Under the pieces are notes generated by a model that made no database searches, was not told the origin of the DNA, and worked only from the letters and a program-made list of their open reading frames with translations. Positions 2,149 through 58,994 of a stretch of DNA of 64,000 nucleotides are shown here, piece after piece (positions within the stretch are counted from its first letter, which is position 1; every line of letters starts with the position of its first letter). Source of the stretch: Vigna angularis (Eukaryota; Streptophyta; Magnoliopsida; Fabales; Fabaceae); contig NC_068979.1 of assembly GCF_016808095.1 (NCBI RefSeq), positions 16,956,501 through 17,020,500 on the forward strand, read 5' to 3'. The translations under genes were made by a program, and so were the position numbers.

Positions 2149-2453
2149 CTGGGTTGCCTCCCAGGTAGCGCTTGTTTAACGTCACGAGCCTGACCCAAAA
2201 TCCTCCAGCACCCTTTAGTAGATGCAAATCTTTCTTACCAACACCCATCAGTAGGTGTATACAAACATAGTATCCTTCAGTAGATACTCTTCCGCCTAAC
2301 ATCCATCAGTAGATGTAAACCCTGTAACAAACTTATAACAAAAACAAAAATACCCAAAAGTTCAAAATTACATCACCAAATCAAAAATTAAAAGTTTTTA
2401 AATCATTGGGTTGCCTCCCAGCAAGCTCTCTTTTAACGTCACTAGCTTGACCC
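2149..2453 (-). repeat. E1 structured block: hairpin array between two conserved 48-bp blocks
   Basis: Read on the minus strand. Block copies at 2149-2196 and 2406-2453 each contain GACGTTAAA, an AGCGCT-like segment and the hairpin CTGGG/CCCAG with loop AGGCAA (the 2406 copy has one weakened pair, and its GCGCT is changed). Between them lie stem-loops at 2241-2258 (ACACC/GGTGT), 2269-2288 (AGTATC/GATACT) and 2299-2316 (ACATC/GATGT), plus a decayed one near 2208-2225. The loop is constantly CATCAGTA or CTTCAGTA as read on plus. Confidence 0.8.
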
Positions 2454-3237
2454 AATAAAGCTCATGTTCCATCTTCTTTTTCTTCTTTCTACTGAACTTC
2501 TTCAGAAATTTGATCAAACTAGGAACTTGTTGCAATGTCTCAATCATAGGAACTTTAATCTCCAATTTCTTGAAGATTTCCATAAAGCGCTCAAATTCCT
2601 TCTTCCTATGATACTTCTTTGGATGAGGAAGAGGTTTTTCATATGATTCTTTCTTTTTTTCTCTCGTCCTCTTTTTCTTCACACAAATTTGCTCTCCATC
2701 TTTCTCTTCTCTCTCTTTTCTCTCTTCTTTTTCCAACTCAACTTTTTCAACATTTACACTCACTAGCACTTTACAGACTTCCCTGGGGTTAACCTCAGTA
2801 TTAGCCCCAAAATTCTTGTCAGGCCTTTCTTCCAACAACTTATTAATTTGACCCATTTGAATCTCCAAGTTCGTAATAGCAGCTTCAGTTCTCTTTTGAG
2901 TGGATTCAGTTGCCTGTATGAATTGTTGAAGAGTTTCTTCCATCCTTATTGATCTTTCATTAAGTATAGAAATTTGTTGCCATAAGGTTGGTTGTTGTTG
3001 TTTCTTGTTAAATTGCCCAGTTTGTCCAGCTTGCCCACTTTGTCCTTGACCAATACTTGGGTGTGGTTTCCACCCTTCATTGAAGTTTCCCTGACAGTAT
3101 GGAAATTGATTGGCCCTGAAGTTAACATCCTCCAAAGCTTCTGCTGGAAAGGCGCATTGACCATTGACATGGTCACCTCCACATAATTCACACAACTGTA
3201 ATTGAACCTGTGCAACAGCCTTTAACTCTTTTGGCAT
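2398..3237 (-). pseudogene. E1 gag-like ORF, 3' part
   Basis: This 279-residue open frame is the downstream part of the E1 gag-like ORF, cut off from its start (10712-10852) by element A. Near its N-terminus it has a zinc-knuckle-like CELCGGDHVNGQC (CX2CX3HX4C). A Q/G-rich stretch, a coiled-coil-like stretch and a K/E-rich stretch follow, then a segment resembling the Athila gag-protease spacer (FKKLEIKVP...). The last residues are translated from the conserved structured block. No capsid domain and no protease are present. The frame was apparently open before element A inserted. Whether such a reduced Gag ever worked is unknown. Confidence 0.75.
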
Positions 3238-3263: not shown

Positions 3264-3510
3264 TGATAACAGTTGAAAAACTGTTATTTTCATGCTTAAA
3301 ATTGATACTAAAAGCAACCTTTAGACTTAGAAACTAGCTTGAAATCAATGCTTTTATCTTTATTTTCAGAAATAAGAGAGCTGGACAGGTTTATGCTTGA
3401 TTTGAGTGTTTTTGTGCAGGTTTTAAGGTGAATTTAGTAAAAAGAGTGAAGAAGGAGAGAAGTGACATTAGAAAAGACAAGAAAGAGTGCAAAAAGAGAA
3501 GTCGAAGGCA

Positions 3511-3639
3511 CCGCTCAGCGGAAATTACCGCTGAGCGGCACTCAAGGGGTCACGTTGGAACCGCTGAGGGGCAGAATGGCCGCTGAGGGGAAGAAAGAAG
3601 ACGCGCAACCACCGCTGAGCGGTAAATACCGCTGAGCGG
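3511..3639 (+). promoter_or_regulatory. CCGCTSAGCGG dyad array in element A 5' LTR
   Basis: Six 11-mers: CCGCTCAGCGG at 3511, CCGCTGAGCGG at 3528, variant CCGCTGAGGGG at 3561 and 3580, CCGCTGAGCGG at 3612 and 3629. Each core is a palindrome (CCGCT/AGCGG around one base). They come in pairs spaced 17, 19 and 17 bp. The array ends 48 bp upstream of the TATA box. The same layout is at 9646-9774. A binding-site role is inference. Confidence 0.75.
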
Positions 3640-3686
3640 CACTTTTTGGGCTTGGGCTTTTGTAATCTTTTGTAACTCTAGATTAG

Positions 3687-3693
3687 TATATAA
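3687..3693 (+). promoter_or_regulatory. LTR TATA box
   Basis: TATATAA followed by GGGC sits ~425 bp into the LTR, just after the dyad array. It is repeated at 9822-9828 and, in E2, at 51609-51615 and 59419-59425. Confidence 0.7.
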
Positions 3694-4582
3694 GGGCTTG
3701 CACGTCCTAGGGTTTAGTATCTTTGGCAGAAACGAAGCAAACACTCTCTCTTCCACCCCTTTGAAGGAGGATCTTGGATGCTCAGGCTACCTCTTCACCT
3801 TTTTAGGGTTTATTCTTTCATTCTTTCATTGTTCATCTAGGTTCACCATGAATATGGTGAACTAAACCTTGTATGTTTGTTGGGGAATCAATGTAATCTC
3901 TTGAAGCTCTCATATATGGAATTTATGCTTGCATCTTAATCTAAGACTTATGCTTTCTTTCATCATTAGTTAGGGTTTTTCCTCTTTACTTAATGCTTGC
4001 ATTGTTTAACTCATTCTATTGCATGATTATTGGTTTTGTCGATACGGACACGTACGGGGAAGTCTAGATCCGGGGAATTTCTCCCAATATTATACTGACA
4101 ATATTATATTGGTTGTCGTTAAGCTCCTGCACTCATGAACTAATCATTAGGAATGCTAGGAATTGTATGAACTATTTGATTAGGGAGAAGCCATCTAGAA
4201 TGGTACTTTAGAGAGTGGCATTAACAATGATGATTTGAATGTTGAATTCCTAAAATGTATGAGAGTGGATGAGATGAAATTGACCCCCAACAACATATTC
4301 ATTCATATAATCCATTGAAAGTGTTTATCTTTTGTCTTTGCCATTGATCAATTCATGCATACATGTTTAGTTTTCGTTTTGCATAATATAATCCAATTAT
4401 TTCGTTTGTAAGTCTTAGCTAATCAACAAACCACACAACTAAACTAGGCCGTGAGTCCTTTGGGAAGAACGATACTTGGTCTTACCAAGTTTATTACTTG
4501 AACGATTCGGTCATACTTGCCGATTGTGAAACAAGTTTGTGACATCATATTTTGGTGCTTACAAATTTGTCCATCAAGTTTT

Positions 4583-4600: not shown

Positions 4601-4925
4601 CTCGTGGTTTAATTGGTTAATTTGTGTGATTATTGATTATCTTTGACTTTTTGAATTTCTGTTTTTATTTTTTCTGTTTTTATTTTATTTTATTTTATTT
4701 TATTTTTCTGTTTTTTATTTTATTTTATTTGATTAGGATAGATTAGATTTTATTTTATTTTATTTTATCTTTTAGATTAGGTTAGATTTTATTTATTTAT
4801 TTTTTTTTATTAGGTTTTATTTGATTCTATCTTCTAAATCTTTTTATCTTCTGAATATATATCTTCTTCTATATTTTTTTGTGCTAACAAATATTTCCTA
4901 GAGTTTTGTGCCTAATGTTTGCAGA
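4601..4925 (+). other. Element A T-rich leader
   Basis: Non-coding leader dominated by TTTTATTTTA repeats between primer site and gag-like ORF. The end (…TTTGCAG just before the ATG) resembles a splice acceptor. No clear donor was found. Confidence 0.6.
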
Positions 4926-5819
4926 ATGCAATTTGGTCAAGAATTTAATTATATGGGCACTCAATTCTACCAAAGTAATCTCAACCAATGGTGGGAACCT
5001 CACTCAAGCATGGATCAAAGCCAATTTTGGCAAGCTGCCGGACAATTTGAGAACCAACCACAACAACAATGGCAGCAAAAATCCTCTCTATCAGAAAGTT
5101 TGGAGGACACCCTTCAACGATTTTTGAAAAGTTCCGACTCTACTCAGAAAAGCATTGAAGAATCATGTAAAAGGATGGAGATGCACTTTCGTTACATTAG
5201 TCAGAGATTGGATGATGAGGTTAATACTGAAGTTAACCTTAAGGAGGAAGGGCACACCAATGTCACTGAAAGTGACAAGATTCTTGATGAGAAAAAAATA
5301 GAGGGAGATGCGGAAAAGATAGAGAGAAAAGAGAAAGAAGAGTTGAGTGAGAAAAATAAAGATGAAGAAAAAGAGAAAGAAGTGGTTGAGAGAGAAGAGA
5401 GAAAGAAGATTTGTGTGAAAATAAAGAAGTTGAAAAGAAAAAGAAAAGGGAAGAAAAAAATAAAAGAAAAGAAAAAGAGAAATTTTAAGGAGAGAAAAAG
5501 GAAGAAAAAGAAGATGAGAGGAAAGAAGAAGAAATCATATGAAAAATCCCATCCTCATCTAAAGAAGAATCATAGGAAGGAAAAGAAATTTAAGTGCTTA
5601 ATGGAAATCTTCAAGAAATTGGAGATTAAAGTTCCTATGATTGAAACACTGCAACAGGTTCCTGGTTTGATCAAATTTCTGAAGAAGTTCAGTAGGAAGA
5701 AGAAAAAGAAGAAGGAACTTAAGCTTTACTGGGTCAAGCTAATGACGTTAAAAGAGCGCTTGCTGGGAGGCAACCCAGTGATTGACAAACTTTTAATTTT
5801 GATTTGGTTTAATTTGTGA
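4926..5819 (+). CDS. Reduced gag-like protein of element A
   Basis: 297 residues from the ATG at 4926. The N-terminal ~60 residues are Q/W-rich and shared with the E3 gag start. A coiled-coil-like part is followed by a long K/E/R-rich stretch (about residues 115-215). Next comes a segment resembling the Athila gag-protease spacer (FKKLEIKVP). The tail is read from the conserved DNA block (5731-5780). Compared with E2, the capsid domain, zinc knuckle and protease are deleted, so it is unlikely to form particles. The charged low-complexity region may have expanded after the function was lost. It is probably a relic that is still open. Confidence 0.6.
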   Translation: MQFGQEFNYMGTQFYQSNLNQWWEPHSSMDQSQFWQAAGQFENQPQQQWQQKSSLSESLEDTLQRFLKSSDSTQKSIEESCKRMEMHFRYISQRLDDEVNTEVNLKEEGHTNVTESDKILDEKKIEGDAEKIERKEKEELSEKNKDEEKEKEVVEREERKKICVKIKKLKRKRKGKKKIKEKKKRNFKERKRKKKKMRGKKKKSYEKSHPHLKKNHRKEKKFKCLMEIFKKLEIKVPMIETLQQVPGLIKFLKKFSRKKKKKKELKLYWVKLMTLKERLLGGNPVIDKLLILIWFNL

Positions 5820-6048
5820 ACATTATTCTGTAAATATTTTGTTGAATTTAGCATCTACTGAAGGATGCTAGGTGGTTAAGTATCTACTGAAGGATACAAT
5901 GTTGTAACACCTACTGATGGGTGTTGGTAAGAAATTTTGCACCTACTGATGGGTGCTGGTAAGTTTGAAACACCTACTGATGGGTGTTGGTGGATTTTGG
6001 GTCAGGCTCGTGACGTTAAACAAGCGCTACCTGGGAGGCAACCCAGTT
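5731..6048 (+). repeat. Element A structured block: hairpin array between duplicated blocks
   Basis: Block 1 (5731-5780) and block 2 (5999-6048) share GACGTTAAA, AGCGCT and the perfect stem CTGGG/CCCAG with loop AGGCAA (5763-5778 and 6031-6046). Between them are five stem-loops: 5849-5870 (TAGCATC/GATGCTA), 5880-5897 (GTATC/GATAC), 5906-5925 (AACACC/GGTGTT), 5939-5956 (GCACC/GGTGC) and 5969-5988 (AACACC/GGTGTT). The 8-nt loops are TACTGAAG or TACTGATG. Stems change by paired substitutions and loops hardly change. Confidence 0.85.
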
Positions 6049-6188
6049 GATTGATTGTTTTTGTTTATTTATTTTTAGTTAGGATTTGCATAAGCATTTT
6101 TAACATTGAATTGCAGGGAACCTATGAGGGACATGTAGGGAAGGCACGTAGGTCAAGAAAAGAAGGAGAAGGGCACATCACGAAAGTG

Positions 6189-6281
6189 CCGCTGAGCGGC
6201 AATTACTGCTGAGCGGTATTATCGCAGATGGGCTTAAGTTCCCCTTAGCGGGACCCGAGCCCATAAGGGTATTTTTATACC
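6189..6281 (+). promoter_or_regulatory. Putative internal promoter of element A
   Basis: A dyad CCGCTGAGCGG at 6189 and a variant at 6206 (17 bp apart) precede a TATA-like TTTTTATACC (about 6272-6281). A leader containing C/T-rich CTTCTCTCTGCAC follows. The layout mirrors the LTR (dyad pair, then TATA) and is repeated in E2 at 55783-55875. Downstream come a likely 5'UTR intron and the accessory ORF, so it could give that ORF its own transcript. This is inference; no transcript data are available. Confidence 0.5.
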
Positions 6282-6424
6282 CCAAGCTGCGTTTTAGGGT
6301 TTATTTTCTGGCTTCTCTCTGCACAAACATTTCCACACACATTCTCTTAGGTTTTCCACATCTTTTCACTCTTCCCTATTTAGAAAATCTCTCTTTCACT
6401 CACTTTTTCATTAGTGTGCCATCA

Positions 6425-6437
6425 AAGTTTGGGGTTG
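6425..6437 (+). other. Internal polypurine-tract-like motif
   Basis: AAGTTTGGGGTTG, identical to the 13 bases immediately before the 3' LTR (9386-9398). A shorter copy lies at 8749-8760. The three-copy arrangement recurs in E1, E2 and E3. Confidence 0.55.
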
Positions 6438-6492
6438 GAAGAGAGCATTCTAGTTTGGAAGCATTCTCATATCATCTAGCATCTCCACCCAA

Positions 6493-6899
6493 GTAAGTAA
6501 AATGCATTTGGTTCATTCTAGGGTTCTTGAATTTGAATGTGATTGTCAAAGCATGAATATTTAGGGGTTTTGATTTCTATGCATGATTTGATGATATATT
6601 TGATGTTTGAACCGATTAAACTGCATGATTATGAACTGGAAATATGAAAATTGCATTTGGGTGGAGTTAGGAAAGTTTTAAAACGAGATTTGCAAAAATC
6701 TGCAGGTCACCGCTGAGCGGCATTTACCGCTGAGCGGCACTCTGCCAGATTTGGTTTTTCTGGTTTTGCGTGTGGTACTGGTGGCGCTGAGGGGAAATTC
6801 TGGCCCTCAGCGGTGGTTTAGCTTCGAAAGGAGTTGTGTTCTGTGTTTACTAATGATTAACATCATGTTCTGTGGTTTTGGTTTGTGTTTTGAATGCAG
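6493..6899 (+). other. Putative 5'UTR intron of the accessory ORF (element A)
   Basis: A donor GTAAGT at 6493-6498, a branch-point-like TACTAAT near 6848 and an acceptor TTTTGAATGCAG ending at 6899 predict a 407-bp intron. The accessory ATG lies 2 bases after the acceptor. The intron carries another dyad pair (6710 and 6727, 17 bp apart) and GAGGGG/CAGCGG variants near 6782-6812. The same signals are conserved in E2 (56087-56495). Confidence 0.6.
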
Positions 6900-6901
6900 G
6901 A

Positions 6902-8128
6902 ATGGCATCCTCTTCTGGAAAGAGATTGAAAACCATGGCAACCAAGAGAAAGGAAAAGGAACCAGAGCAGCCCCATAATGGCAGGTTCCTTTCTAGGAAA
7001 CATGAGAAGCACTTTAGGGTGGTTCAGGACAGGAGACTTCTAATGGAGAGAAAAGTTGGAATGATACCTAACTTTGCTCCTCAATTTGGAGAGCAAGTGT
7101 TAGGGAATGATTGGGGAAAGCTAGCCACTTATCCAGCACCTGCCAACATAGCTGTGGTCAAGGAATTCTACACCAATGCAAAGAAGATTGGTGGCCATCC
7201 AGCTGAGAATTATTTGGGCTATGTCAGAGGCCATGCTATCAGGTTTGATCCTGATTCTATCAACAACTTCCTGGATACTGTGTGGGCTGGTGAGCAATGT
7301 CAGTTTGCTCTTAGCATGGAGGAAGGTGCTGACTTTGAGGATGTTGAGAGAGTACTGTGTATACCTGGAGGACACTTCCAAAGGAATAGATCTGGCGCAG
7401 TGGTTAATATTAGGAGGACGGATTTGACTCCTCTTGCAAAATATTGGATGGCATTTTCTCATGCCAACATTCAGCCATGTTCACATGTGTCAGATATTAC
7501 TCTCAGCAGGGCACTATTCATCTACTGTGCTATCAGAAACTTGAATGTTAATATTGGGCAGGTAATAGCTGATGAAATCAGTGTATGTGCTAACACCTCA
7601 AACAACAAAGCACCACTAGGACATCCTTCTTTGATCACTCACCTTTGCAAGCAAGCTGGGGTGGACACTTCTGTTCCACCATTTGAGAGGCCAAGAAAAG
7701 CTATTGATGAGGCTTATTATAGACAGTACTGTGGAGGTGAGGATGCAGCTCAGCCAGTTCCACCACGCCAGGCTCGTAGAGGGCCAGCACAGAGCCGGAC
7801 GTCTGTGGATACACATGAAGCAGAACCATTCCAGATGAGGGACATGTATATGTCTCTTATAGGTGCTCAGTTGCAGTCCATTCACAGAGGGCAGGTGGCC
7901 ACTGCTGAGATGATAGTGGGGATGTATGATAATCCTCCAGCACACAGGTGGACTATGGATGAATTCCATAATGTGGTAGCTTGGCCAGAAGAACCATTGC
8001 ATGGAGAAGCTGAAGCAGCTGAAGCTTCAGCAAGAGATATGGAAGAAGATGAAGCTGAGGAGGAGGATGCATTTGATGAAGATGAAGATGAGGAGGAAGA
8101 GGAAGATACAGAGGACAGCTCAGACTGA
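6902..8128 (+). CDS. Accessory ORF: putative plant transposon protein domain (PF20167-like), element A
   Basis: 408 residues from the ATG right after the predicted acceptor; the open frame extends upstream but without ATG. A basic N-terminus (KRLKTMATKRKEKEPEQ) could be a nuclear signal. The central part (about residues 70-260) fits what I know of the 'putative plant transposon protein' domain found in Athila/Ogre-type elements: NIAVVKEFYTNAK, YVRGHAIRF, the C-SHVSDITLSRAL stretch, and HPSLITHLCKQAGV. The C-terminus is a long Asp/Glu tail. No catalytic motif is recognisable. The E2 copy (56498-57724) is the same length and differs at about nine residues. Function unknown. An RNA- or DNA-binding or regulatory role is only a guess from the charge layout. 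Confidence 0.8.
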   Translation: MASSSGKRLKTMATKRKEKEPEQPHNGRFLSRKHEKHFRVVQDRRLLMERKVGMIPNFAPQFGEQVLGNDWGKLATYPAPANIAVVKEFYTNAKKIGGHPAENYLGYVRGHAIRFDPDSINNFLDTVWAGEQCQFALSMEEGADFEDVERVLCIPGGHFQRNRSGAVVNIRRTDLTPLAKYWMAFSHANIQPCSHVSDITLSRALFIYCAIRNLNVNIGQVIADEISVCANTSNNKAPLGHPSLITHLCKQAGVDTSVPPFERPRKAIDEAYYRQYCGGEDAAQPVPPRQARRGPAQSRTSVDTHEAEPFQMRDMYMSLIGAQLQSIHRGQVATAEMIVGMYDNPPAHRWTMDEFHNVVAWPEEPLHGEAEAAEASARDMEEDEAEEEDAFDEDEDEEEEEDTEDSSD

Positions 8129-9398
8129 TGAGGAGCTGAGATAGCATTTACTGATGAATGCTATCAAATGATTATGCTTTTGTGGTTTAAGTTTTCTGAA
8201 CTCATTTGTTTTTGTTTTTAGATTAGGGTTTGATGTACTCTTTTGAAAACCTGGTTTGTGTGATGGTTTGCTATTAACTGTGATTGTTTGATAAGTAATG
8301 CTTGATGATGCTTATTGATTGATTGATGTTGAAATGATGTGCACATTAAATGCTTATACAGGTGATTCACAAGCTTTGTGAACAAATGCACTATATCATG
8401 ATTGTGATTGTGAAATTAAGCAGGATGTGTATGTCAAATGTGAATGAGCTTATATGTGAGGTTTTGAGCTCCAGAGTTGTTATTGTTGAATGCTATTACT
8501 TTGAAAGCATGAATGATTTTGCCCAGGTTTTATATGATTGAATCAATTGCTTGTTTTGCATCATATGATCAAGGCCGTGTTGTTGAAACCCTTTTTATTG
8601 GCCAAATACATAAAATTAGCCCACTAAAAGAGAACACTTTGTGTTCTATCCTTTGAACCCTTAGCCTTGAACATACACTTGAAACCTTTGATTGAAAATC
8701 TTTACCTTGAGTTAAGTAGAAGATCTTATGTGGTATTGTTAAATGTTCAAGTTTGGGGTTATTGGGAAAACATAAAAAGCATTGAGCTAAGAGCTAAAAA
8801 GTAAGAATATGCAAAGAAAAAGAAAAGAAAAGAAAAAGAAGTAAAGCTCAATGCAGTTGCAATTGTAAAAGGCAAGTTGGGAATGAATAAGATGATTGTG
8901 TTGTTATGATTCTCTTGACTCAAGGATTTTGCGATCCAGAAAAACCAATTTTCTTGTTAGCCCAGCCACATTATAAGCCAGTGAAAAGTCCTTTTGATGA
9001 TGCATGCTTGTGATTGTTTTGATTGTGGTAAAATGAAAGGCAAAGTTGATTCATGTGACATTGTGATAGTGGAGTGAATGAGCGAAACACTACACCTCTT
9101 ATACACTTGTGTGTTTAGTGAAACACTTTACCTAGTGAGGAAATATTCCATAAGCACATGAACATCCATGCTTAATTGATTGATCATTCATGAAGAATAG
9201 CATTTGTTGGAATTTAAATGACTTTGTGAACACTAAAGCATGTGCACATCTTGATTGAATCTTGGTCATAAGTTTGAGTGAAGTTGTTACTTATCTTGAG
9301 AAAAGGATTTTGAATGAGTGAACCATCATATGAATTGATTAGAGATGGAGTTACATTTTGTTTGCTTGAGGACAAGCAAAGTTCTAAGTTTGGGGTTG
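8129..9398 (+). other. Element A 3' internal non-coding region and polypurine tract
   Basis: About 1.27 kb without a credible gene. It holds an A/G-rich tract (about 8815-8842), a second copy of the polypurine motif (8749-8760) and the terminal polypurine tract AAGTTTGGGGTTG (9386-9398) abutting the LTR. A 63-codon frame at 8350-8541 exists in both A and E2 but is decayed in E1, so I do not call it a gene. Confidence 0.7.
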
Positions 9399-10711
9399 TG
9401 ATAACAGTTGAAAAACTGTTATTTTCATGCTTAAAATTGATACTAAAAGCAACCTTTAGACTTAGAAACTAGCTTGAAATCAATGCTTTTATCTTTATTT
9501 TCAGAAATAAGAGAGCTGGACAGGTTTATGCTTGATTTGAGTGTTTTTGTGCAGGTTTTAAGGTGAATTTAGTAAAAAGAGTGAAGAAGGAGAGAAGTGA
9601 CATTAGAAAAGACAAGAAAGAGTGCAAAAAGAGAAGTCGAAGGCACCGCTCAGCGGAAATTACCGCTGAGCGGCACTCAAGGGGTCACGTTGGAACCGCT
9701 GAGGGGCAGAATGGCCGCTGAGGGGAAGAAAGAAGACGCGCAACCACCGCTGAGCGGTAAATACCGCTGAGCGGCACTTTTTGGGCTTGGGCTTTTGTAA
9801 TCTTTTGTAACTCTAGATTAGTATATAAGGGCTTGCACGTCCTAGGGTTTAGTATCTTTGGCAGAAACGAAGCAAACACTCTCTCTTCCACCCCTTTGAA
9901 GGAGGATCTTGGATGCTCAGGCTACCTCTTCACCTTTTTAGGGTTTATTCTTTCATTCTTTCATTGTTCATCTAGGTTCACCATGAATATGGTGAACTAA
10001 ACCTTGTATGTTTGTTGGGGAATCAATGTAATCTCTTGAAGCTCTCATATATGGAATTTATGCTTGCATCTTAATCTAAGACTTATGCTTTCTTTCATCA
10101 TTAGTTAGGGTTTTTCCTCTTTACTTAATGCTTGCATTGTTTAACTCATTCTATTGCATGATTATTGGTTTTGTCGATACGGACACGTACGGGGAAGTCT
10201 AGATCCGGGGAATTTCTCCCAATATTATACTGACAATATTATATTGGTTGTCGTTAAGCTCCTGCACTCATGAACTAATCATTAGGAATGCTAGGAATTG
10301 TATGAACTATTTGATTAGGGAGAAGCCATCTAGAATGGTACTTTAGAGAGTGGCATTAACAATGATGATTTGAATGTTGAATTCCTAAAATGTATGAGAG
10401 TGGATGAGATGAAATTGACCCCCAACAACATATTCATTCATATAATCCATTGAAAGTGTTTATCTTTTGTCTTTGCCATTGATCAATTCATGCATACATG
10501 TTTAGTTTTCGTTTTGCATAATATAATCCAATTATTTCGTTTGTAAGTCTTAGCTAATCAACAAACCACACAACTAAACTAGGCCGTGAGTCCTTTGGGA
10601 AGAACGATACTTGGTCTTACCAAGTTTATTACTTGAATGATTCGGTCATACTTGCCGATTGTGAAACAAGTTTGTGACATCATATTTTGGTGCTTACAAA
10701 TTTGTCCATCA
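9399..10711 (+). repeat. Element A 3' LTR
   Basis: Same length as the 5' LTR (1,313 bp) and by eye nearly identical. The dyad array is at 9646-9774 and the TATA box at 9822-9828. It is followed by the ATTCT duplication (10712-10716). Confidence 0.95.
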
Positions 10712-10852
10712 ATTCTCCAATTGTTGAGTTAGTATCTTGTTCTGAGCTAACAAGGCATCATTGGCTTTGATCCATGGTTGAGTGAGGTTCCCACTGAGAT
10801 TACTTTGGTAGAATTGAGTGCCCATATAGTTAAATTCTTGTCTGAATTGCAT
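10712..10852 (-). pseudogene. E1 gag-like ORF, 5' part
   Basis: The minus-strand ATG at 10852 starts a frame of 47 codons that runs up to the element A insertion and is in phase with the 2398-3237 part once the insertion and one ATTCT copy are discounted. It matches the start of the E3 gag for about 30 residues, then jumps to the region before the zinc knuckle. The capsid-coding part is therefore deleted. Confidence 0.75.
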
Positions 10853-12520: not shown

Positions 12521-14483
12521 GTCCCGCACATTCCTGAAAAGTGCAAGGACCCAGGTATATTTTGCATTCCTTGTGTGATTGGAAACAATAAATTTGAGAA
12601 TGCCATGCTGGATTTGGGTGCTTCTGTTAATGTCATGCCTTTGTCTATATATGCATCTTTGTCTCTTGGTCCTTTGCAAACCACGGGTGTGGTCATTCAG
12701 TTGGCCAATAGGAGTGTTACCCACCCAACAGGTTTCATAGAGGATGTCTTGGTTAGGGTTGGTGAATTGATTTTTCCTGCTGACTTTTATGTTTTGGAAA
12801 TGGAGGAGGGATTCTCTCATGGATCCGCTCCCATTATCTTAGGCAGGCCATTCTTGAAAATTGCCCGAACTAAGATTAATGTGTATGCTGGAACTTTGTC
12901 TATGGAATTTGCTGATATTGTTGTTCATTTTAATATCCTTGATGCAATGAAATTTCCAGTTGAGGACCATTCTCTGTTTAGGATCGATGCATTGGATGAC
13001 ATTATTGATGAAATTGTTGTTGACGACTTTCATTCTTTGCATGAGAAGAAGCATTCTTTTCTATCTTCTTTGCATTCATGCATGGAATCTGGATTCGAAT
13101 CAGGATTTGAGAATGATGTTGATAATGTTGTGGATTTTGATCAGAATTGTAATGTTGTTGACATATCTGTGATGGACATTGATTTGGATTGTGATGAGAT
13201 GAGTGTTCTGCCTTTACCTATACACTCTTTAGATTCAGAATGCATTAACCACGTTGTAGGAAGTACACTTGAATCTGACTTGCAGGCACCCACTCTTGAG
13301 CTGAAACAGCTCCCAGATAACCTCAAGTACGTGTACTTGGAGGATGATGAGAAGAAACCGGTGATCATTTCTACCTCCCTTGATTCTGTTCAAGAGGAGA
13401 ACTTGCTTGGTGTGCTGAGGAAGCACAAGAAGGCCATTGGTTGGAGTTTGGCTGACATACCTGGTATTAGCCCATCCACATGCATGCATAGAATTCTTTT
13501 GGAAGATGGGGAAAAGCCAGTGAGACAGCCACAAAGAAGGAAAAACCCCGTGATCATGGACGTCATCAAGAAGGAGGTGACCAAGCTTTTGCAAGCTGGG
13601 ATCATCTACCCTATTTCAGACAGTCAGTGGGTGAGCCTCATCCATGTTGTGCCCAAGAAAACTGGCCTCACTATGGTGAAGAATGAGAGGGATGAGCTTA
13701 TCCCAACTAGAGTGCAGAACAGCTGGAGAGTCTGCATTGACTATAGGAGGCTCAACCAAGCAACCAGGAAAGATCATTTCCCCTTGCCATTCATTGATCA
13801 GATGCTGGAGCGCCTGGCAGGTAAATCTCATTATTGTTTTCTTGATGGTTTTTCTGGTTACTTTCAAATAAATATTGCGCCTGAGGATCAAGAGAAAACC
13901 ACATTCACCTGCCCCTTTGGCACTTTTGCCTATAGGAGGATGCCCTTTGGTCTATGCAACGCCCGTGGTACCTTCCAACGGTGCATGCTTAGCATTTTTA
14001 GCGACTTTCTTGAGAGTTGCATAGAGGTGTTTATGGATGATTTTACTGTGTATGGATCCTCTTTTGATGCATGTTTAGACAGTCTGGAAAAAGTTTTGAA
14101 AAGATGCATAGAAACAAACCTTGTTCTCAATTTTGAGAAATGTCACTTCATGGTTGAACAAGGTTTGGTTCTAGGGCATATCATTTCTGAAAAGGGAATA
14201 GAGGTAGACCCTGCTAAGTTATTTGTGATTTCGCAGTTGCCTTACCCCTCTTGCGTGCGAGAGGTGCGATCTTTCCTTGGACATGCAAGTTTCTACAGGC
14301 GCTTCATCAAAGATTTCAGCAAGAAGGCACTCCCCTTGTCCAGACTGCTGTAGAAGAATATTGACTTTGCTTTTGATGACAGATGCAAGGAGGCGTTTGA
14401 TTGGCTGAAGGAAGCTTTGACCACCACCCCTATCATTCAGGCACCGGATTGGACAGCCCCATTTGAGCTCATGTGTGATGCGT
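12521..14483 (+). pseudogene. Athila-type pol, first part: protease and reverse transcriptase
   Basis: A continuous frame from 12521 encodes an aspartic protease (MLDLGASVNVMP, then IILGRPFL), a spacer, and a Ty3/gypsy reverse transcriptase of Athila type with KSHYCFLDGFSGY, MPFGLCNA and the catalytic VFMDDF. A TAG at 14351 interrupts the frame where a Gln is expected, after which coding resumes in the same frame (…PFELMCDA) up to 14483, where E3 inserted. The 5' end is cut by E1, so gag and the 5' LTR lie left of the window if they survive. As an old copy it is not functional. Confidence 0.9.
14479..14483. repeat. target-site duplication TGCGT (left of E3)
   Basis: TGCGT precedes E3 and is repeated at 20827-20831 directly after it. 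The RNase H coding frame is consistent across the site. Confidence 0.95.
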
Positions 14484-15803
14484 TGATGGACAAATTTATG
14501 AACACTGAAAACGGCGCCATAAACTTGTTTTAACAATCGGCAAGTGTGACCGAATCGTTTCAAGTAATAAACTCGGTAAGACCAAGTATCGTTCTCCCAA
14601 AGGACTCACGACCTAGTTTAGTTATGTGATTCGTTGATTATTTAAGACTTAAGAACAAAATAAGTGGAGTTTAATATGCAAAACAGAAAATAAACATGTA
14701 TGCATGAATTTGATCAATGGCTAAAACAAAATACAAACACTTCAATGGAATATATGGATGAGTATGTTGTTGGGGTTATCAATTTCATCTTATCCACTCT
14801 CATATACTTTAGGAATTCAACATTCTTTTCATCATTGTTAATGCCACTCTCTAAATTACCTTGCAAGAAGGCCTATCCCTAATTACGAGTTCATACGATT
14901 CCTAGCATTCCTAATAATTAGTTCTTTTAGTGCAGGAGCCTAACGGCAACCAATATACTATTGGGAGAAATTCCCCGGATCTAGACTTCCCCGTACGTTC
15001 CCGTATCGACAAAATCAATAATCATGCATTGAAGGAGCTAAACAAAGCAAGCATTGAGCAAAGAGGAAAAACCCTAACTAATGATGAAAGAAAGCATAGG
15101 TCTTAAATATAAGATGTAAAAACAAATTCCATATATGAGAGTTTCACAAGACTACATTGATTCCACAACAACAATACAAGGTTTAGTTCACCATATTCAT
15201 GGTGAAACTAGATGAACAATAATGAAATAAGGAAAGATAAAACCCTAAAAAGGTGAAGAGGTAGCCTGAGCATCCAAGATCCTCCTTCAAAGGGGTGGAA
15301 GAGAGAGTATTTGCTTCGTCACAGCCAAAGATACAAACCCTATGACCCTAAAGCTTATATACTATTCGTAAATTACAGAAAAATTAGGCTCAAGCCCATA
15401 AGTGTGCCGCTCAGCGGTAAAGTACCGCTCAGCGGTAAAGTACCGCTCAGCGGTAAGTGCGCGAGCTCGATTCTTCCCCTCAGCGGCCATTTTGCCCCTC
15501 AGCGGATCCCCCGTGAACTCCTGAGTGCCGCTCAGCGGTAAACTGCCGCTGAGCGGTAGTTGCAGCTCCTCCTTTTGCACTTTTTTGATGTCTTTTCTGA
15601 TTCCATCTCTCTCCTTCTTCACTTCTTTCACCAAATTCACCTTAAAACCTGCCCAAAAACACTGAAATCAAGCATAAACCTGTCCAGCTCTCTTATTTCT
15701 GAAAATATGAATAAAAGCATGATTTCAAGCTAGTTTCTAAGTATAAAGGTTGCTTTTAGTATCAATTTTAAGCATGAAAATAATAGTTTTTCAACTGTTA
15801 TCA
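14484..15803 (-). repeat. E3 3' LTR
   Basis: 1,320 bp. It is longer than its partner mainly because the dyad array (15407-15556) has one extra 18-bp unit. TATA on the minus strand is at 15357-15363. A second CGGCGCCA is at 14512-14519. Confidence 0.92.
15407..15556 (-). promoter_or_regulatory. Dyad array in E3 3' LTR
   Basis: Three CCGCTCAGCGG units in tandem with an 18-bp period (15407, 15425, 15443), then GAGGGG/CAGCGG-type variants, then a closing pair ending at 15556. The array lies just upstream (in minus orientation) of the TATA box. Confidence 0.7.
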
Positions 15804-17470: not shown

Positions 17471-17768
17471 CTGGGTTGCCTCCCAAGTAGCGCTTGTTTA
17501 ACGTCACGAGCCTGACCCAAAATCCACCAACACCCATCAGTAGGTGCAGATCTTTCTTACCAACACCCATCAGTAGGTGTATACAAACATAGTATCCTTC
17601 AGTAGATACTCTTCCGCCTAACATCCATCAGTAGATGTAAACCCTGTAACAAACTTATAACAAAAACAAATACCCAAAAGTTCAAAATTACATCACCAAA
17701 AATTAAAAGTTCTTAAATCATTGGGTTGCCTCCCAGCAAGCGCTCTTTTAACGTCACTAGCTTGACCC
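17471..17768 (-). repeat. E3 structured block: hairpin array between duplicated blocks
   Basis: Blocks at 17471-17518 and 17721-17768. Between them are stem-loops at about 17529-17546 (ACACC against GGTGC, one weak pair), 17562-17580 (ACACC/GGTGT), 17591-17610 (AGTATC/GATACT) and 17621-17638 (ACATC/GATGT). Loops are the complement of TACTGATG or TACTGAAG. Confidence 0.8.
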
Positions 17769-18113: not shown

Positions 18114-19148
18114 TTATTTCTCTTTTTCTTCATCTTTATTTTTCTCACTCAACTCTTCTTCCTTAAGGTTAACTTCAGTATTAACCTCATCATTCAATTT
18201 CTGACTAATGTAACGAAGTTGCATCTCCATCCTTTTACATGATTCTTTAATGCTTTTCTGAGTAGCGTCAGAATTTTTCAAAAATCGCTGAAGGGTTTCA
18301 TCCAAACTATCCAAACTTCCTGATAGAACGGGTTGTTGTTGTTGCTTGTTAAATTGCCCTGATTGTCCAGCTTGCCCACTTTGTTCATGACCAATACTTG
18401 GGTGTGGTTTCCACCCTTCATTGAAGTTTCCCTGACAGTATGGAAATTGATTGGCCGTGAAGTTAACATCCTCTAAAGCTTCCACTGGAAAGGCGCATTG
18501 ACCATTGATATGGTCACCCCCACATAATTCACACATCAATTCACACATCTGTGGTTGAACCTGTGCAACAGTCTTTAACTCTTTTGGCAATTGTTCAAGT
18601 ATCTTTGTGAGATTCTCCAATTGTTGAGTTATTAACTTGTTCTGAGCTATCAAGGCATCATTGGATTGCAACTGTAACACTCCTTTTTGTTGAATAGGAG
18701 CTCCTCTTTCACTGTTCCACTTATTGTCATTCGTAGTCATGTTTTCAATTATTTCTGTGGCTTCCTCTGGAGTTTTCCATTTGATATTGCCTCCAGCTGA
18801 GGCGTCAAGCATCATCATGGTTTGTGAACCAAGACCTCCAAGGAAGATTAGGACTACTTCTCCTTCGTTAAATCCATGCGTGGGAGTCTTTCTTAATAGG
18901 CTTTTGTACTTGTCCCATGCGTGACCTAGTGTTTCCTCCATGCCTTGTCTAAATGAAGAGATCTCTTGCTTCCCTTTGTTGATTTTAAAGCTTTGTTGCT
19001 GCCATTGTTGTTGTGGTTGGTTCTCAAATTGTCCGGCAGCTTGCCAAAATTGGCTTTCATCCATGCTTGAGTGAGGTTCCCACCAGTGGTTGAGATTACT
19101 TTGATAGAATTGAGTGCCTATATAGTTAAATTCTTGATCAAATTGCAT
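18114..19148 (-). CDS. E3 gag-like protein (partial capsid plus zinc knuckle)
   Basis: 344 residues from the ATG at 19148 to a TAA. The Q/W-rich N-terminus is as in A. Then comes the C-terminal half of the Ty3/gypsy capsid domain (KGKQEISSFRQGMEETLGHAWDKY…LRKTPTHGF…FLGGLGSQT), a zinc-knuckle-like CELCGGDHINGQC and a coiled-coil-like tail. The N-terminal half of the capsid domain present in E2 is missing. The knuckle is preceded by a small duplication (CELMCELC). It may not assemble particles. The frame truncates before the lysine-rich part by a stop. Confidence 0.7.
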   Translation of the reverse strand: MQFDQEFNYIGTQFYQSNLNHWWEPHSSMDESQFWQAAGQFENQPQQQWQQQSFKINKGKQEISSFRQGMEETLGHAWDKYKSLLRKTPTHGFNEGEVVLIFLGGLGSQTMMMLDASAGGNIKWKTPEEATEIIENMTTNDNKWNSERGAPIQQKGVLQLQSNDALIAQNKLITQQLENLTKILEQLPKELKTVAQVQPQMCELMCELCGGDHINGQCAFPVEALEDVNFTANQFPYCQGNFNEGWKPHPSIGHEQSGQAGQSGQFNKQQQQPVLSGSLDSLDETLQRFLKNSDATQKSIKESCKRMEMQLRYISQKLNDEVNTEVNLKEEELSEKNKDEEKEK

Positions 19149-19517: not shown

Positions 19518-19523
19518 AAAACT

Positions 19524-22538: not shown

Positions 22539-23377
22539 CTCAGGGAGTTTCTTTTCTCCTTTCCTCCTCACTTTTATTGCACTTTGTCGATATCTGATGA
22601 CTGTTCTGATTGTTTGATCTGCTGATTGTGACACACTAAGGACATTGTGTCATTTAAGTGTGGTCTACTAGGGGAGGTTGTTTCTTTGTTCATGTTTCGG
22701 TTTTTATGTAGTTTGTTGTGTCTTGTGTACAGTTTTGCATGCTTTTCGTGAATTCTGGATTGTGATTAGGTTGTCAGTTTTCCTTCACTTCATTGATACT
22801 CTGATTTGTTGGATTCCTTGTTTTTCTTTGCTTGGAAGATGATCATGATGTTTGAGAGTTGAATTGATGGTGACCATATTACCTGTGTGAGATTTGAGCC
22901 ATTTGATGATCTTTCTTGTGTGTGAGATGTCTCTTGATTGCTTGCACATATGTCTTGGCTTGACTCTTTTTGATGATTCTTGATTGATACGTATGTTTGA
23001 AAGTGATAAAGGCATTTTGTTGTTGAGCCTCTAGAGCCAGATGAGCCTACCCTGTTTTGATCCATTGATAACCCTTTTGAGCCTATGCTTTTCCCCATTT
23101 CTTTGTTTTGGAGCTCATACACTAGCCCTAAGTGAGAAACCATTATTACCTTAGCCTTAGGGAATTTTGGAGCTTTGGAATTGTTTTGGGAATAAGTGTG
23201 GTCTCTTGGGAGTTTCAGAGGAATTGGCTAGTGAGTCCTCTTCTTATCGTGTTTTTGTAAATATGTGGTGTATCTTGTCTCTTGTCGAGTCTGTGTCACC
23301 TCCCTGATGTTTGAGTAGTTCCCTGGTTTTCGTCTTGGTTTTGCCCAGGAGTGCAAAAAACTAAGTGTAGTCTATTT
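22539..23377 (+). other. Athila post-pol region with repeated polypurine-like motifs
   Basis: Non-coding stretch between integrase and the putative 3' LTR. The motif TAAGTGTGGTCT occurs at 22655 (followed by ACTAGGGGAGG), 23193 (followed by CTTGGGAG) and, changed, at 23362 next to the LTR. I see no env-like ORF. Confidence 0.55.
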
Positions 23378-52935: not shown

Positions 52936-55347
52936 ATGCAGGAAGCAATTCGGACTAGGAGCAAGAAAACAACAGAACCACTTTTTGAAGGGCTAGACGA
53001 GAGTAGAAGGAGGAGAAGAATCAGAACGTCCAGAGAACTTTTCCCTTCTCCAGAAACTCTCCTCCAAACATCACCACAAGGTTCTGTTCACAGCACAAGA
53101 AGCATGGAGAATAACAATGCTAGAAGAACTCTTGCAGATTACACCAATCTTGCTGGACCTCAACACTTTAACAGCATAGCTAGACCTAGAGTCAATGCAG
53201 CCAACATGGAGGTCAAGCCAGCATTAATTCAACTGGTGAAGAGTAATCAATTTAATGGGTTATCTCACGAAAGCCCATATGAGCACCTTACAACTTTCAA
53301 TGAGATCTGCAACACGGTCAAAATTAATGGGGTGCCAGACGAAGCTATCAAACTTAGCTTGTTTCCCTTCTCATTGGGGGGCAATGCTAAGCTTTGGTTA
53401 AACTCTTTTCCAGAAGAAAGTTTCACAGAGTGGGAAGCAGTGGTCACAAAATTTCTGAACAAGTACTTTCCACAGTCAAAGGTGACCAAAGGCAAGCAAG
53501 AAATTTCGTCATTCAAGCAGGGCATGGAGGAGTCACTTGGACATGCATGGGACAGGTATAAAAGCTTGTTACGCAAAACTCCCACGCATGGTTTCGAAGA
53601 TCAAGAAGTAGTCCTAACTTTCCTTGGAGGGCTTGGTTCACAAACCAAGATGATGCTGGATGCCTCAGCTGGAGGCAATATCAAATGGAAGACTCCAGAG
53701 GAAGCAACTGACATTATTGAAAATATGGCTACAAGTGACAATGAGCTACACAGTGAGAGAGGAGCCCCTACGCAACAAAGAGGGGTTCTGCAATTACAAA
53801 CCCATGATGCCTTGCTAGCTCAGAACAAAATTCTAACTCAACAGCTGGAGACTCTGACTAAAACCTTGGCTCAATTACCTAAAGAGTTGAAATCTGCTGC
53901 ACAGGTACAAACCCAGTTATGCGAATTATGTGGAGGTGACCATATCAATGGTCAATGTGCTTTGCCAGTGGAAGCCGTGGAGGATGTTAATTTCATGGCT
54001 AATCAGTTTCCATACCGCCAAGGGAATTACAATCAAGGGTGGAAACCACATCCAAGCATTGGCCAAGGACAAACTGGGCAAGCTAATCAATATAACAAGC
54101 AGCAGCAGCAACCAACCTTGTGGCAACAATTATCTGCGCTTAATGAAAGGCAAACAAGGTTGGAAGAAACTCTTAATCAATTTATACAGAAAACAGAATC
54201 TTCTCAAAAGAGCACTGAAGCTGCGATAAAGAATTGGGAGATTCAAATGGGTCAGATTATCAAGCGATTGGAAGAAAGACCCGACAGAAATTTTGGGGCT
54301 AATACTGAGGTTAACCCCAGAGAAGAGTGCAAGGTGGTAGAGAGTGTTGATGATGAGAAAGTTGAGTTAGATACAGAAGAAAGAAGAAAAATAGAGAGCA
54401 AAAGCACTTTTCCCTTCCATCAAGACTTCACAGAATTATTCAAAATGGTGGATAATGATGCACCTTGGGAACAGATTTTACAACAGATTACGGTTTACAC
54501 TAAATCTAATGAAGAAATCTCTACAAAGAAAAGACGTAGAGATGATGAGGCAAAGGAGTGTATAACTGTTAAGCAAGAGTCATTCCCTCCTAAAGCACCA
54601 GATCCAGGTAGTTTTTCTATCCCTTGCACTATAGGGAAGAAACAGGTGAAGAAAGCTCTCCTTGATTTAGGTTCAAGTGTTAACTTGATACCTTATTCTT
54701 TACTGGAGCAAATTGGCAATGTTAAAGTGAAACCTGTAAAGGTTAATCTAGTAATGGCCGATGGATCTTCAAAGGAGCCATGTGGGATTGCTGAGGATAT
54801 TATAGTTTGTGCTGGCAAACTTCAGTTTTTAGCAGACTTTGTGGTGATGAAGATGGAGACCGAGAAGATACCTATCATACTTGGAAGACCGTTTATGAAA
54901 ACGGCCAGGGCCATCATTGATGTACATGAAGGTATAGTGGTGCTCCAAGACAGAGAGGAGAGAGTGGTGGTGGATGTCTTCAAAGATGAAACACAAGCAA
55001 AGGAGGAAGAGGCTAGTTATAAAGCTGCATTTCGAGATGCACCCATGACTAGAAGTCAAGATGAAAATCTTGAGGTTTCAGGTAACCATTGTTTGTTGTT
55101 TCAGGTACCCAAGGATGAAGAAGAAACTGGAAAAGGAGAAGAGATTCATAGGGACTGGAAGAAAAGAGAACCCCAACTTGGCACACCTGTGAGACTCAAG
55201 AACAAGTTGTGGGTTGTGAAGGGTTTCAAAGAAAAGGAGATGATAGAGATAGAGTCTCCATATTCTAGAAGAACCAAAACAGTCCAAAGGAAGCAGTTGA
55301 GAAGTTGGTGGAAAGACTACATCAACTATACAGAAGATGGAACGTGA
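52936..55347 (+). CDS. E2 gag-protease polyprotein
   Basis: 803 residues from the ATG at 52936. The basic N-terminus (SRRRRRIRTSREL) is shared with E4. The Ty3/gypsy capsid domain spans about residues 100-270, with LSLFPFSLGGNAKLWLNSFP and KGKQEISSFKQGMEESLGHA. A zinc-knuckle variant has C329, C332, H336 and C341 (CX2CX3HX4C). A Q-rich part and coiled coil follow, then aspartic protease with DLGSS at 577-581 and ILGRPF at 648-653. The ~130-residue tail after protease (LGTPVRLKNKLWVVKGF…) is unfamiliar and ends where the conserved structured block begins. No stops or shifts, so it could still make particles; reverse transcriptase and integrase must come from elsewhere. Confidence 0.9.
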   Translation: MQEAIRTRSKKTTEPLFEGLDESRRRRRIRTSRELFPSPETLLQTSPQGSVHSTRSMENNNARRTLADYTNLAGPQHFNSIARPRVNAANMEVKPALIQLVKSNQFNGLSHESPYEHLTTFNEICNTVKINGVPDEAIKLSLFPFSLGGNAKLWLNSFPEESFTEWEAVVTKFLNKYFPQSKVTKGKQEISSFKQGMEESLGHAWDRYKSLLRKTPTHGFEDQEVVLTFLGGLGSQTKMMLDASAGGNIKWKTPEEATDIIENMATSDNELHSERGAPTQQRGVLQLQTHDALLAQNKILTQQLETLTKTLAQLPKELKSAAQVQTQLCELCGGDHINGQCALPVEAVEDVNFMANQFPYRQGNYNQGWKPHPSIGQGQTGQANQYNKQQQQPTLWQQLSALNERQTRLEETLNQFIQKTESSQKSTEAAIKNWEIQMGQIIKRLEERPDRNFGANTEVNPREECKVVESVDDEKVELDTEERRKIESKSTFPFHQDFTELFKMVDNDAPWEQILQQITVYTKSNEEISTKKRRRDDEAKECITVKQESFPPKAPDPGSFSIPCTIGKKQVKKALLDLGSSVNLIPYSLLEQIGNVKVKPVKVNLVMADGSSKEPCGIAEDIIVCAGKLQFLADFVVMKMETEKIPIILGRPFMKTARAIIDVHEGIVVLQDREERVVVDVFKDETQAKEEEASYKAAFRDAPMTRSQDENLEVSGNHCLLFQVPKDEEETGKGEEIHRDWKKREPQLGTPVRLKNKLWVVKGFKEKEMIEIESPYSRRTKTVQRKQLRSWWKDYINYTEDGT

Positions 55348-55355
55348 ACTTTATT

Positions 55356-55640
55356 GGGTCAAGCTAATGACGTTAAAAGAGCGCTTGCTGGGAGGCAACC
55401 CAGTGATTGACAAACTTTTAATTTTGATTTGGTTTAATTTGTGAACATTATTCTGTAAATATTTTGTGGAATTTAGCATCTACTGAAGGATGCTAGGTGG
55501 TTAAGTATCTACTGAAGGATACTAGGTTTGTAACACCTACTGATGGGTGCTGGTAAGTTTGAAACACCTACTGATGGGTGTTGGTGGATTTTGGGTCAGG
55601 CTCGTGACGTTAAACAAGCGCTACCTGGGAGGCAACCCAG
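55356..55640 (+). repeat. E2 structured block: hairpin array between duplicated blocks
   Basis: Blocks at 55356-55405 and 55593-55640. Stem-loops at 55474-55495 (TAGCATC/GATGCTA), 55504-55523 (AGTATC/GATACT), 55533-55549 (CACC/GGTG, end pair weak) and 55563-55582 (AACACC/GGTGTT). In E2 the first block lies just 3' of the gag-protease stop, so it is untranslated here although it is translated in A. Confidence 0.85.
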
Positions 55641-55782
55641 TTGATTGATTGTTTTTGTTTGTTTATTTTTAGTTAGGATTTGCATAAGCATTTTTAACAT
55701 TGAATTGCAGGGAATCTATGAGGGGTATGCTAGGAAGGCACGTAGGTCAAGAAAAGAAGGAGAAGGGCACATCACGAAAGTG

Positions 55783-56495: not shown

Positions 56496-56497
56496 GA

Positions 56498-57724: not shown

Positions 57725-58994
57725 TGAGGAGCTGAGATAGCATTTACTGATGAATGCTATCATATGATTATGCTTTTGCGGTTTAAGTTTTCTGAACTTA
57801 TTTGTTTTCGGTTGTAGATTAGGGTTTGATGTACTCTCTTGAAAACCTGGTTTGTGTGATGGTTTGCTATTAACTGTGATTGTTTGATAAGTAATGCTTG
57901 ATGATGCTTATTGATTGATTGATGTTGAGATGATGTGCACATTAAATGCTTATACAGGTGATTCACAAGCTTTGTGAACAAATGCACTATATCATGATTG
58001 TGATTGTGAAATTAAGCAGGATGTGTATGTCAAATGTGAATGAGCTTATATGTGAGGTTTTGAGCTCCAGAGTTGTTATTGTTGAATGCTATTACTTTGA
58101 AAGCATGAATGATTTTGCCCAGGTTTTCTATGATTGAATCAATTGCTTGTTTTGCATCAGATGATCAAGGCCGTGTTGTTGAAACCCTTTTTATTGGCCA
58201 AATACATAAAATTAGCCCACTAAAAGAGAACACTTTGTGTTCTATCCTTTGAACCCTTAGCCTTGAACATACACTTGAAACCTTTGATTGAAAAATCTTT
58301 ACCTTGAGTTAAGTAGAAGATCTTGTGTGGTATTGTTAAATGTTCAAGTTTGGGGTTATTGGGAAAACATAAAAAGCATTGAGCTAAGAGCTAAAAAGTA
58401 AGAATATGCAAAGAAAAAGAAAAGAAGAGAAAAAGAAGTAAAGCTCAATGCAATTGCAATTGTAAAAGGCAAGTTGGGAATGAATAAGATGATTGTGTTG
58501 TTATGATTCTCTTGACTCAAGGATTTTGTGATCCAGAAAAACCAATTTTCTTGTTAGCCCAGCCACATTATAAGCCAGTGAAAAGTCCTTTTGATGATGC
58601 ATGCTTGTGATTGTTTTGATTGTGGTAAAATGAAAGGCAAAGTTGATTCATGTGACATTGTGATAGTGGAGTGAATGAGCGAAACACTATACCTCTTATA
58701 CACTTGTGTGTGAGTGAAACACTTTACCTGGTGAGGAAATATTCCATGAGCACATGAACATCCATGCTTAATTGATTGATCATTCATGAAAAATAGCATT
58801 TGTTGGAATTTAAATGATTTTGTGAACACTAAAGCATGTGCACATCTTGATTGAATCTTGGTCATAAGTTTGAGTGAAGTTGTTACTTATCTTGAGAAAA
58901 GGATTTTGAATGAGTTAACCATCATATGAATTGGTTGGAGATGGAGTTACATTTTGTTTGCTTGAGGACAAGCAAAGTTCTAAGTTTGGGGTTG
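57725..58994 (+). other. E2 3' internal non-coding region and polypurine tract
   Basis: Matches 8129-9398. It holds an A/G-rich tract (about 58408-58440), a second polypurine motif (58346-58357) and the terminal tract (58982-58994) abutting the LTR. No gene seen. Confidence 0.7.

Follow-up and report, generated by a model that had tools for sequence, protein, structure and literature searches.

We found in a 64-kb stretch of Vigna angularis DNA (the window) a hairpin array which, with a probability of about 0.43, we read as a selected modular RNA element that would act in the sense genomic RNA of a retrotransposon and be bound by Gag/nucleocapsid for packaging. The array combines a predicted structure with covarying stems and a near-constant loop, and its motif is dispersed within one element. 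The module would consist of a 5-10 bp stem, free in sequence and kept in its pairing, and of the loop UACUGANG. Such modules appear to cluster immediately 3' of gag/pol, in groups of 4-5 or, in two expanded copies, of about ten, for the most part flanked on either side by a copy of a conserved block, and to recur in gag and past the PF20167 ORF (Table 1).

Table 1. Positions and strands of the arrays, their flanking blocks and the related features
Feature	Positions	Strand	Details
Five-hairpin array of element A	5849..5988	+	loops at 5856, 5885, 5912, 5944, 5975
A unit 1	5849..5870	+	stem TAGCATC/GATGCTA, loop TACTGAAG
A unit 2	5880..5897	+	stem GTATC/GATAC, loop TACTGAAG
A unit 3	5906..5925	+	stem AACACC/GGTGTT, loop TACTGATG
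A unit 4	5939..5956	+	stem GCACC/GGTGC, loop TACTGATG
A unit 5	5969..5988	+	stem AACACC/GGTGTT, loop TACTGATG
E1 four-hairpin array	2208..2316	-	fourth unit 2208-2225, loop TACTAAAG
E3 four-hairpin array	17530..17638	-	four units
E4 four-hairpin array	55474..55582	+	unit 3 outer pair A·C
First flanking block of A	5731..5778	+	direct repeat bracketing the array, ends in CTGGG/CCCAG hairpin
Second flanking block of A	5999..6046	+	direct repeat of first block
Block copies, E1	2406-2421, 2149-2164	-	bracket E1 array
Block copies, E3	17721-17736, 17471-17486	-	bracket E3 array
Block copies, E4	55388-55403, 55625-55640	+	bracket E4 array
5' LTR of A	3264-4577	+	partner 3' LTR 9399-10712, 99.92% identity
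LTR pair of E4	51185-52501 / 58995-60311	+	99.92% identity
LTR pair of E3	14483-15803 / 19523-20826	-	96.5% identity
Gag-remnant ORF of A	4908..5819	+	303 aa, lysine-rich, includes gag-site hairpin
PF20167 (Transposase_32) ORF of A	6872..8128	+	Pfam E = 1.4e-66
Gag-site hairpin of A	5218..5239	+	7-bp stem AGGTTAA/TTAACCT, loop TACTGAAG at 5225, inside gag
Gag-site homologues	18166-18187 (-), 54294-54319 (+), 2784-2809 (-)		E3 loop at 18173
Gag-site hairpin of E4	54294..54319	+	TGGGGCTAA/TTAACCCCA, one C·A mismatch, loop TACTGAGG
3'-site hairpin of A	8140..8165	+	9-bp stem GATAGCATT/AATGCTATC, loop TACTGATG at 8149, just past PF20167 stop
3'-site hairpin of E4	57736..57761	+	stem and loop as in A, loop at 57745
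Donor-like GGTAAG, A	5926 and 5958 (5926..5963)	+	after units 3 and 4; consensus match only
Donor-like site, one each	E4 55552, E3 17561, E1 2239		consensus match only
Acceptor-like ATTGCAG/G, A	6110..6117	+	consensus match only
Acceptor-like sites	near E4 55710, E3 17384, E1 2062		consensus match only
Three-unit array in tile L059	9396-9484	-	another Ty3/gypsy-like element
CCGCTCAGCGG motif	3511-3538, 9646-9673, 15407-15456, 15528-15556, 20552-20580, 51432-51460, 59242-59270

The initial annotation had described five hairpins with the same loop and different stems in element A, and the five units indeed form perfect 5-bp stems (GCATC, GTATC, ACACC, GCACC and ACACC). Its count of 4-5 units in each of four elements agrees with the 5, 4, 4 and 4 units that we find, while the range it gave for E1 (2241-2316) omits the unit at 2208-2225. 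That a changed stem base nearly always comes with a changed partner is right for most of the window, where 14 of 17 array units have perfect 5-bp stems; the three imperfect ones are E4 unit 3 (ACACC/GGTGC, A·C), E3 unit 4 (GCACC/GGTGT, G·U) and E1 unit 4 (GCATC/GGTGC, U·G). The array loop reads TACTGAWG in all four elements, except for one TACTAAAG. The four arrays belong to one family with two subfamilies and are therefore not four independent observations. Since unit spacings in the sampled arrays are multiples of three in just 55 of 187 cases, a coding repeat is ruled out.

On sequence grounds, elements A, E1, E3 and E4 are Athila-lineage Ty3/gypsy retrotransposons, a placement made by gag and PF20167. 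Paired LTRs enclose an internal region in A, E4 and E3; E1 (minus strand) abuts element A, with its end at 3263. In the Pfam scan the gag domain PF03732 was found in E4 (E = 1.3e-16) and, under Pfam's cut-off, in E3 (E = 0.0003), and the gag ORFs of A and E1 gave no Pfam match; the 303-aa ORF of A owes its gag label to a resemblance to E3 at the DNA level. E4 has a homologue of the PF20167 ORF of A, as judged by DNA comparison; the PF20167 region is missing from E1 and E3, in which the gag site and the array are both retained. In ORFs of at least 150 aa inside A or E4 the Pfam scan detected neither an RT nor an IN domain, so that neither element shows, in the ORFs scanned, the pol (RT, RH, IN) of an Athila-type element. 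We take this element set as non-autonomous Athila-lineage copies. Because A and E4 carry no RT or IN that we could find, yet have LTR pairs that are 99.92% identical, both appear to have been mobile recently, aided by another element.

A (5707-10711) and E4 (55332-60311) share 96.7% identity from a point shortly before the array through to the 3' end; upstream they diverge into a lysine-rich gag remnant in A and a gag-protease region in E4, as if one of them were recombinant. PF20167 relatives are abundant in V. angularis (among 367 above threshold, all 120 matches listed carry its name), and a structure prediction for the PF20167 protein was unusable (mean pLDDT 33). Elsewhere in the window, several LTRs contain a palindromic CCGCTCAGCGG motif, which in one case forms an 18-bp tandem repeat. 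Two direct copies of an 865-bp sequence with 98.8% identity (27994-28858 / 33756-34620) are possibly the LTR pair of another young element, and a tandem repeat of 96 bp in 4.8 copies lies at 49627-50083.

In the 448-Mb genome, the unit-3 21-mer is matched at 3624 places with up to three mismatches (reversed control, 1), the G-C version of unit 1 (GCATC…GATGCTAGG) has 637 (control, 0), and the pattern of the flanking block has 1446 exact matches (control, 0). This block, which ends in the hairpin CTGGG AGGCAA CCCAG, brackets all four window arrays as a direct repeat; it occurs in single copy at L072 and L073. Among 70 sampled stretches (50 array loci and 20 tiles), 47 contained a chained array with exact loops, and the Athila block was found within 300-400 nt on both sides of 42 of these, on one side of five and on neither side of none; the 23 stretches without such a chain include five loci found with the 21-mer and tile L059. 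In two copies, L028:554-1151 and L030 (minus strand) 842-1131, the array has expanded to about ten TACTGANG hairpins. At two loci where the block is of a different version, no array was seen within about 270 nt downstream, and a third version (C1:40499415, minus strand) has a unit-1 match about 150 nt downstream; in this sample of families, the array is thus neither universal in block-bearing elements nor a general need of Athila elements. No relatives were found in the viral_contigs and genome_contigs collections, where two pattern matches (L001, L002) were single sites with no array in the stretches examined.

For the covariation analysis, units were picked by exact loop and spacing with pairing ignored, which gave 188 units from 45 of 50 loci and 48 distinct 22-mers. 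The loci L003-L010 and L012-L051 had been found with a mismatch-free unit-3-like 21-mer among the first 100 listed of the 3624 places, all on contig C1, so that the unit-3 type is over-represented; L001, L002, L011, L004 (which overlaps L003) and L009 (which overlaps L008) were excluded before counting. The fraction of Watson-Crick pairs among the inner five was 0.945 in the 188 units, compared with 0.704 after shuffling of the arms (maximum 0.756 in 2000), and 0.858 in the 48 distinct units, compared with 0.648 (maximum 0.746). Among the distinct units, with relatedness uncorrected, 92.1% of cells were paired (81.7 +/- 1.2 in shuffles) and 46 cells had changed on both sides (17.7 +/- 6.1), and the covariation score was 0.527, against 0.315 +/- 0.025 in shuffled sets and 0.087-0.285 for slid structures; these three values were reached by none of 500 column-preserving shuffles. 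Two other measures, the number of pairs altered in both arms (4 vs 3.0) and of further pair types (9 vs 8.5), did not rise above the shuffles. Independent double changes perhaps number six to ten, many covarying cells being inherited by subfamilies. Loop positions 1-6 and 8 had an entropy of 0.04-0.35 bits, compared with 1.0-1.3 bits where the stem varies and about 1.1-1.9 bits at 13 of 14 outer positions, values that come from a set of 248 chained units in which up to one loop mismatch was allowed and a few false loops were included (e.g. TAGTGACG from the flanking block), so that the low loop entropy is partly by construction. The proposal of the initial annotation that a constant loop with compensated stems marks a selected RNA structure gains support from this larger sample, which stands above both the shuffles and the slid controls, and it seems that the RNA shape itself has been preserved in the hairpin array.

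Within the window, TACTGAWG occurs 23 times, compared with 4.0 +/- 2.2 in shuffles, and 18 of the 23 sites sit on perfect stems of at least 5 bp, with seven different stems. When all 234 hairpins of 5 bp and 8 nt on both strands were ranked by their 151 loops, TACTGATG was found on four different stems and TACTGAAG on three, while every other loop, the reverse complements of these two aside, was found on one. In 21 tiles of 10 kb that were chosen without regard to the motif (L011 and L052-L071, of which L052-L061 adjoin the window), a perfect 5-bp stem was present at 11 of 32 TACTGANG sites, compared with 4 of 1733 for up to 300 permuted loops. These 11 hairpins originate from three elements and one unrelated site. 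The hairpin at L060:6012 (TTGGCAA TACTGAAG TTGCC), considered as a gag site, sits in an unrelated element and was counted as chance. The counts in the window, the covariation, the permuted-loop control and the block found at 47 of 47 chained arrays all speak against chance or a plain satellite, which we regard as already refuted on the counts and hardly credible, even with units in tandem and linkers that resemble each other. The initial annotation had named a plain palindromic satellite unrelated to these elements as one outcome that would overturn its claim; instead, the array keeps company with the flanking block, and its motif returns at two further sites of the element.

A three-unit array in tile L059 offers a comparison outside this family. 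Its element matches window positions 22565-23018 at 73.5% in its downstream part, and the array looks to us to lie just behind a reading frame that resembles the end of an integrase. Similarity between their linkers shows the L059 and A-type arrays to be homologous, which implies that the array was inherited or exchanged between families. With E4 unit 2 as the A-type reference, three neighbouring pairs of L059 unit 2 have changed from T-A, G-C and A-T to C-G, A-T and G-C; unit 3 differs from the A-type by C-G to T-A, and unit 1 by T-A to T·G. Taken together, the inner six pairs show four double changes that preserve pairing, one G·U and no broken pair. With five 3'-side changes over 18 positions, four of them facing a 5'-side change with the right base, the chance of this is about 2 in 100,000 by rough arithmetic, in which the positions are not fully independent and one template switch could have made the three neighbouring changes. 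The L059 loops are not all exact (unit 2 has TGCTGATG), the array has no flanking block, and its centroid fold retains the first hairpin alone.

The same loop, in the form TACTGANG, also occurs on unrelated stems within gag and directly past the stop codon of the PF20167 ORF. This general form follows from the gag site, where copies carry TACTGAGG beside TACTGAAG. In E4 and E1 the gag site reads GGGGCTAA TACTGAGG TTAACCCC, where pair 4 is a single C·A mismatch, as in the GGGGCTAA type generally. This type (loop TACTGAGG) has G-C at pair 7; of the 18 copies of the AGGTTAA type (loop TACTGAAG), by hand count, 11 have A-T there and 7 have A·C. One gag-site copy has ten perfect pairs. These figures come from a loose pattern with 46 matches, 26 of them distinct and several not gag. 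The gag site lies within a conserved protein motif, for which the search expression is matched by 13 of the 120 gag relatives listed; as NTEVN recurs among gag relatives, coding constraint may shape the site. Gag protein relatives were of no use as a proxy for the array DNA. L049 (minus strand) has an additional hairpin at 1274, GCATT TACTGATG GATGC, which lies some 190 nt past the array and resembles the 3'-site hairpin.

Template switching during replication or reverse transcription could in principle have paired the arms of functionless palindromic repeats, which unequal recombination would then have multiplied. Multibase compensatory changes can arise by template switching in one event (PMC8794818); the three neighbouring double changes of L059 unit 2 would fit such an origin, and the arrays at L028 and L030 have expanded. 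We nonetheless consider it improbable, because it leaves unexplained both the fixed loop on changing stems and its presence on unrelated stems in gag and at the 3' site, G·U states with a change on one side occur often, and permuted loops almost never sit on perfect stems.

The array of A (5843-5996, 154 nt) has a predicted fold of -50.0 kcal/mol in sense (z = -5.0) and of -33.1 kcal/mol in antisense (z = -4.8); with gains over shuffles alike on both strands, fold energy was dropped as a test of strand. Each A unit folded singly forms its hairpin, with a U·G pair that narrows the loop to ACUGAA and, where N is U, an added A-U pair that narrows it to CUGA. When the array is folded as a whole, units 1, 2 and 4 are recovered in both the minimum-energy and the centroid prediction, and units 3 and 5 cross-pair through their identical arms. 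Among deviants in the five pairs, G·U outnumbers A·C by 31 to 10 in all units, by 15 to 8 in distinct 22-mers and by 34 to 20 in the 136 distinct 32-mers. A one-sided binomial test, which takes the two rates as equal if neutral, gives about 0.1 for 15/23 and about 0.04 for 34/54, both inflated by shared ancestry. This modest excess is suggestive only and points to sense RNA. It also weighs against the palindromes acting at the DNA level as transcription-factor sites of an internal promoter, like those of some Sireviruses. For such a role speak the strand-neutral z-scores and the position of the array upstream of the env-like ORF, as for the Sirevirus motifs; dyad sites, however, would conserve their arms and leave the spacer free, whereas in our array it is the arms that vary, around a constant spacer, and we hold this role to be very improbable.

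The best rival to protein binding is splicing control, and on balance we think it unlikely. The hairpins would here gate an intron with donors in the array linkers and an acceptor that lies either about 150-190 nt further on or next to the PF20167 ATG on its 5' side, and a subgenomic env-like mRNA would be made. All four elements have GGTRAG past unit 3 (A also past unit 4) and an acceptor-like TTGCAGG, GGTAAG or GGTGAG linkers are common in the sampled arrays, and in A an acceptor-like TGCAGG stands immediately 5' of the PF20167 ATG. Splicing is also reported for some plant elements, for example Bagy2 (PMC7264820), which counts in its favour. All of these sites are consensus matches, however, and splicing would not account for the recurrence of this loop in gag and at the 3' site; E1 and E3 are without the PF20167 region, yet retain array and donor.

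The array might alternatively serve nuclear export, stability or translation, as a CTE/RRE-like element bound by a host factor or by the PF20167 protein, so that unspliced RNA leaves the nucleus or the downstream ORF is translated. Its place between gag/pol and the env-like ORF and its several identical loops would suit this role, as would the nuclear localisation signal predicted for a sunflower Athila aORF, which has similarity to PF20167 (PMC11728184). Against it, the array stays in E1 and E3, where the PF20167 region is missing, and no Rfam family resembles the array (Rfam 15 gave no family at gathering score in the window and none at E <= 1 in 5700-6100). We rate such a function as quite unlikely. 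A likeness of CUGANG to hammerhead or box C/D motifs was dropped with no Rfam match.

Among the proposed roles, multivalent binding of a putative protein fits best. The loop would be the binding site and its multiple copies would confer avidity, presumably in the sense (genomic) RNA. The binder would most likely be the Gag/nucleocapsid of the element or of a partner element, which would select full-length RNA for packaging, copies without pol included. Gag is the first candidate, since the module survives in copies that lack pol and in copies that lack PF20167, and A/E4-type copies moved recently. Retroviral packaging signals mostly lie in the 5' leader, and the position of the A array, about 1.3 kb inside the element, differs from this and counts against packaging. 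The cross-pairing of units 3 and 5, the strand-neutral z-scores, the imperfect gag site and the modest G·U bias likewise count against the packaging reading. Its strongest form appears doubtful: the loop UACUGANG on interchangeable stems, placed in gag, mid-element and in the 3' region and amplified into an array, would be an MS2-like code that the element's Gag reads to select genomes cooperatively, and a second Ty3/gypsy family of this genome would share it. A dimerisation signal, which the initial annotation had also suggested, is disfavoured, since the loop lacks self-complementarity and neither CTTCAGTA nor CATCAGTA, its exact 8-nt complements, occurs on the sense strand of A or E4, so that we rejected kissing loops; a 7-mer part of the complement is present at 5688-5689 (A) and 57173 (E4). 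Little is known about the selection of genomic RNA by plant LTR retrotransposons, or about its hijacking by copies without pol. No description of such an array came up in the titles and abstract openings of open-licence PMC articles, nor by a search with four of its sequence strings, which brought up two unrelated papers. The exact loop with its visible covariation could be a bait for finding the protein, for which the genome holds many natural variants.

The elements resemble the Athila/Calypso lineage of Ty3/gypsy in their gag, in a PF20167-type 3' ORF and in a primer site behind the LTR which, by its motif, we take to be of the tRNA-Asp kind; they differ from two other sampled block-bearing loci in having the hairpin array, and the words 'hairpin' and 'stem' are absent from the main text of the Diaspora and Arabidopsis Athila papers. 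The RNA of MS2-type phages contains numerous dispersed hairpins, alike in their loop and free in their stems, to which the capsid protein binds. The array shares with them the common loop on free stems and differs in belonging to a plant retrotransposon with a putative binder. Packaging and dimerisation signals, such as those of BARE, are likewise cis signals in genomic RNA, and the parasitic BARE2 retains both (PMC3735527); here, in contrast, one loop that is not self-complementary is present in many copies, in gag, mid-element and in the 3' region. Sireviruses have repeated motifs 5' of ENV and in the LTR, and two of them carry clustered short inverted repeats 5' of the env-like ORF, as in our elements (PMC2829016). 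Those motifs conserve their arms, CGG…CCG, and allow the inner bases to vary, whereas our array shows the reverse.
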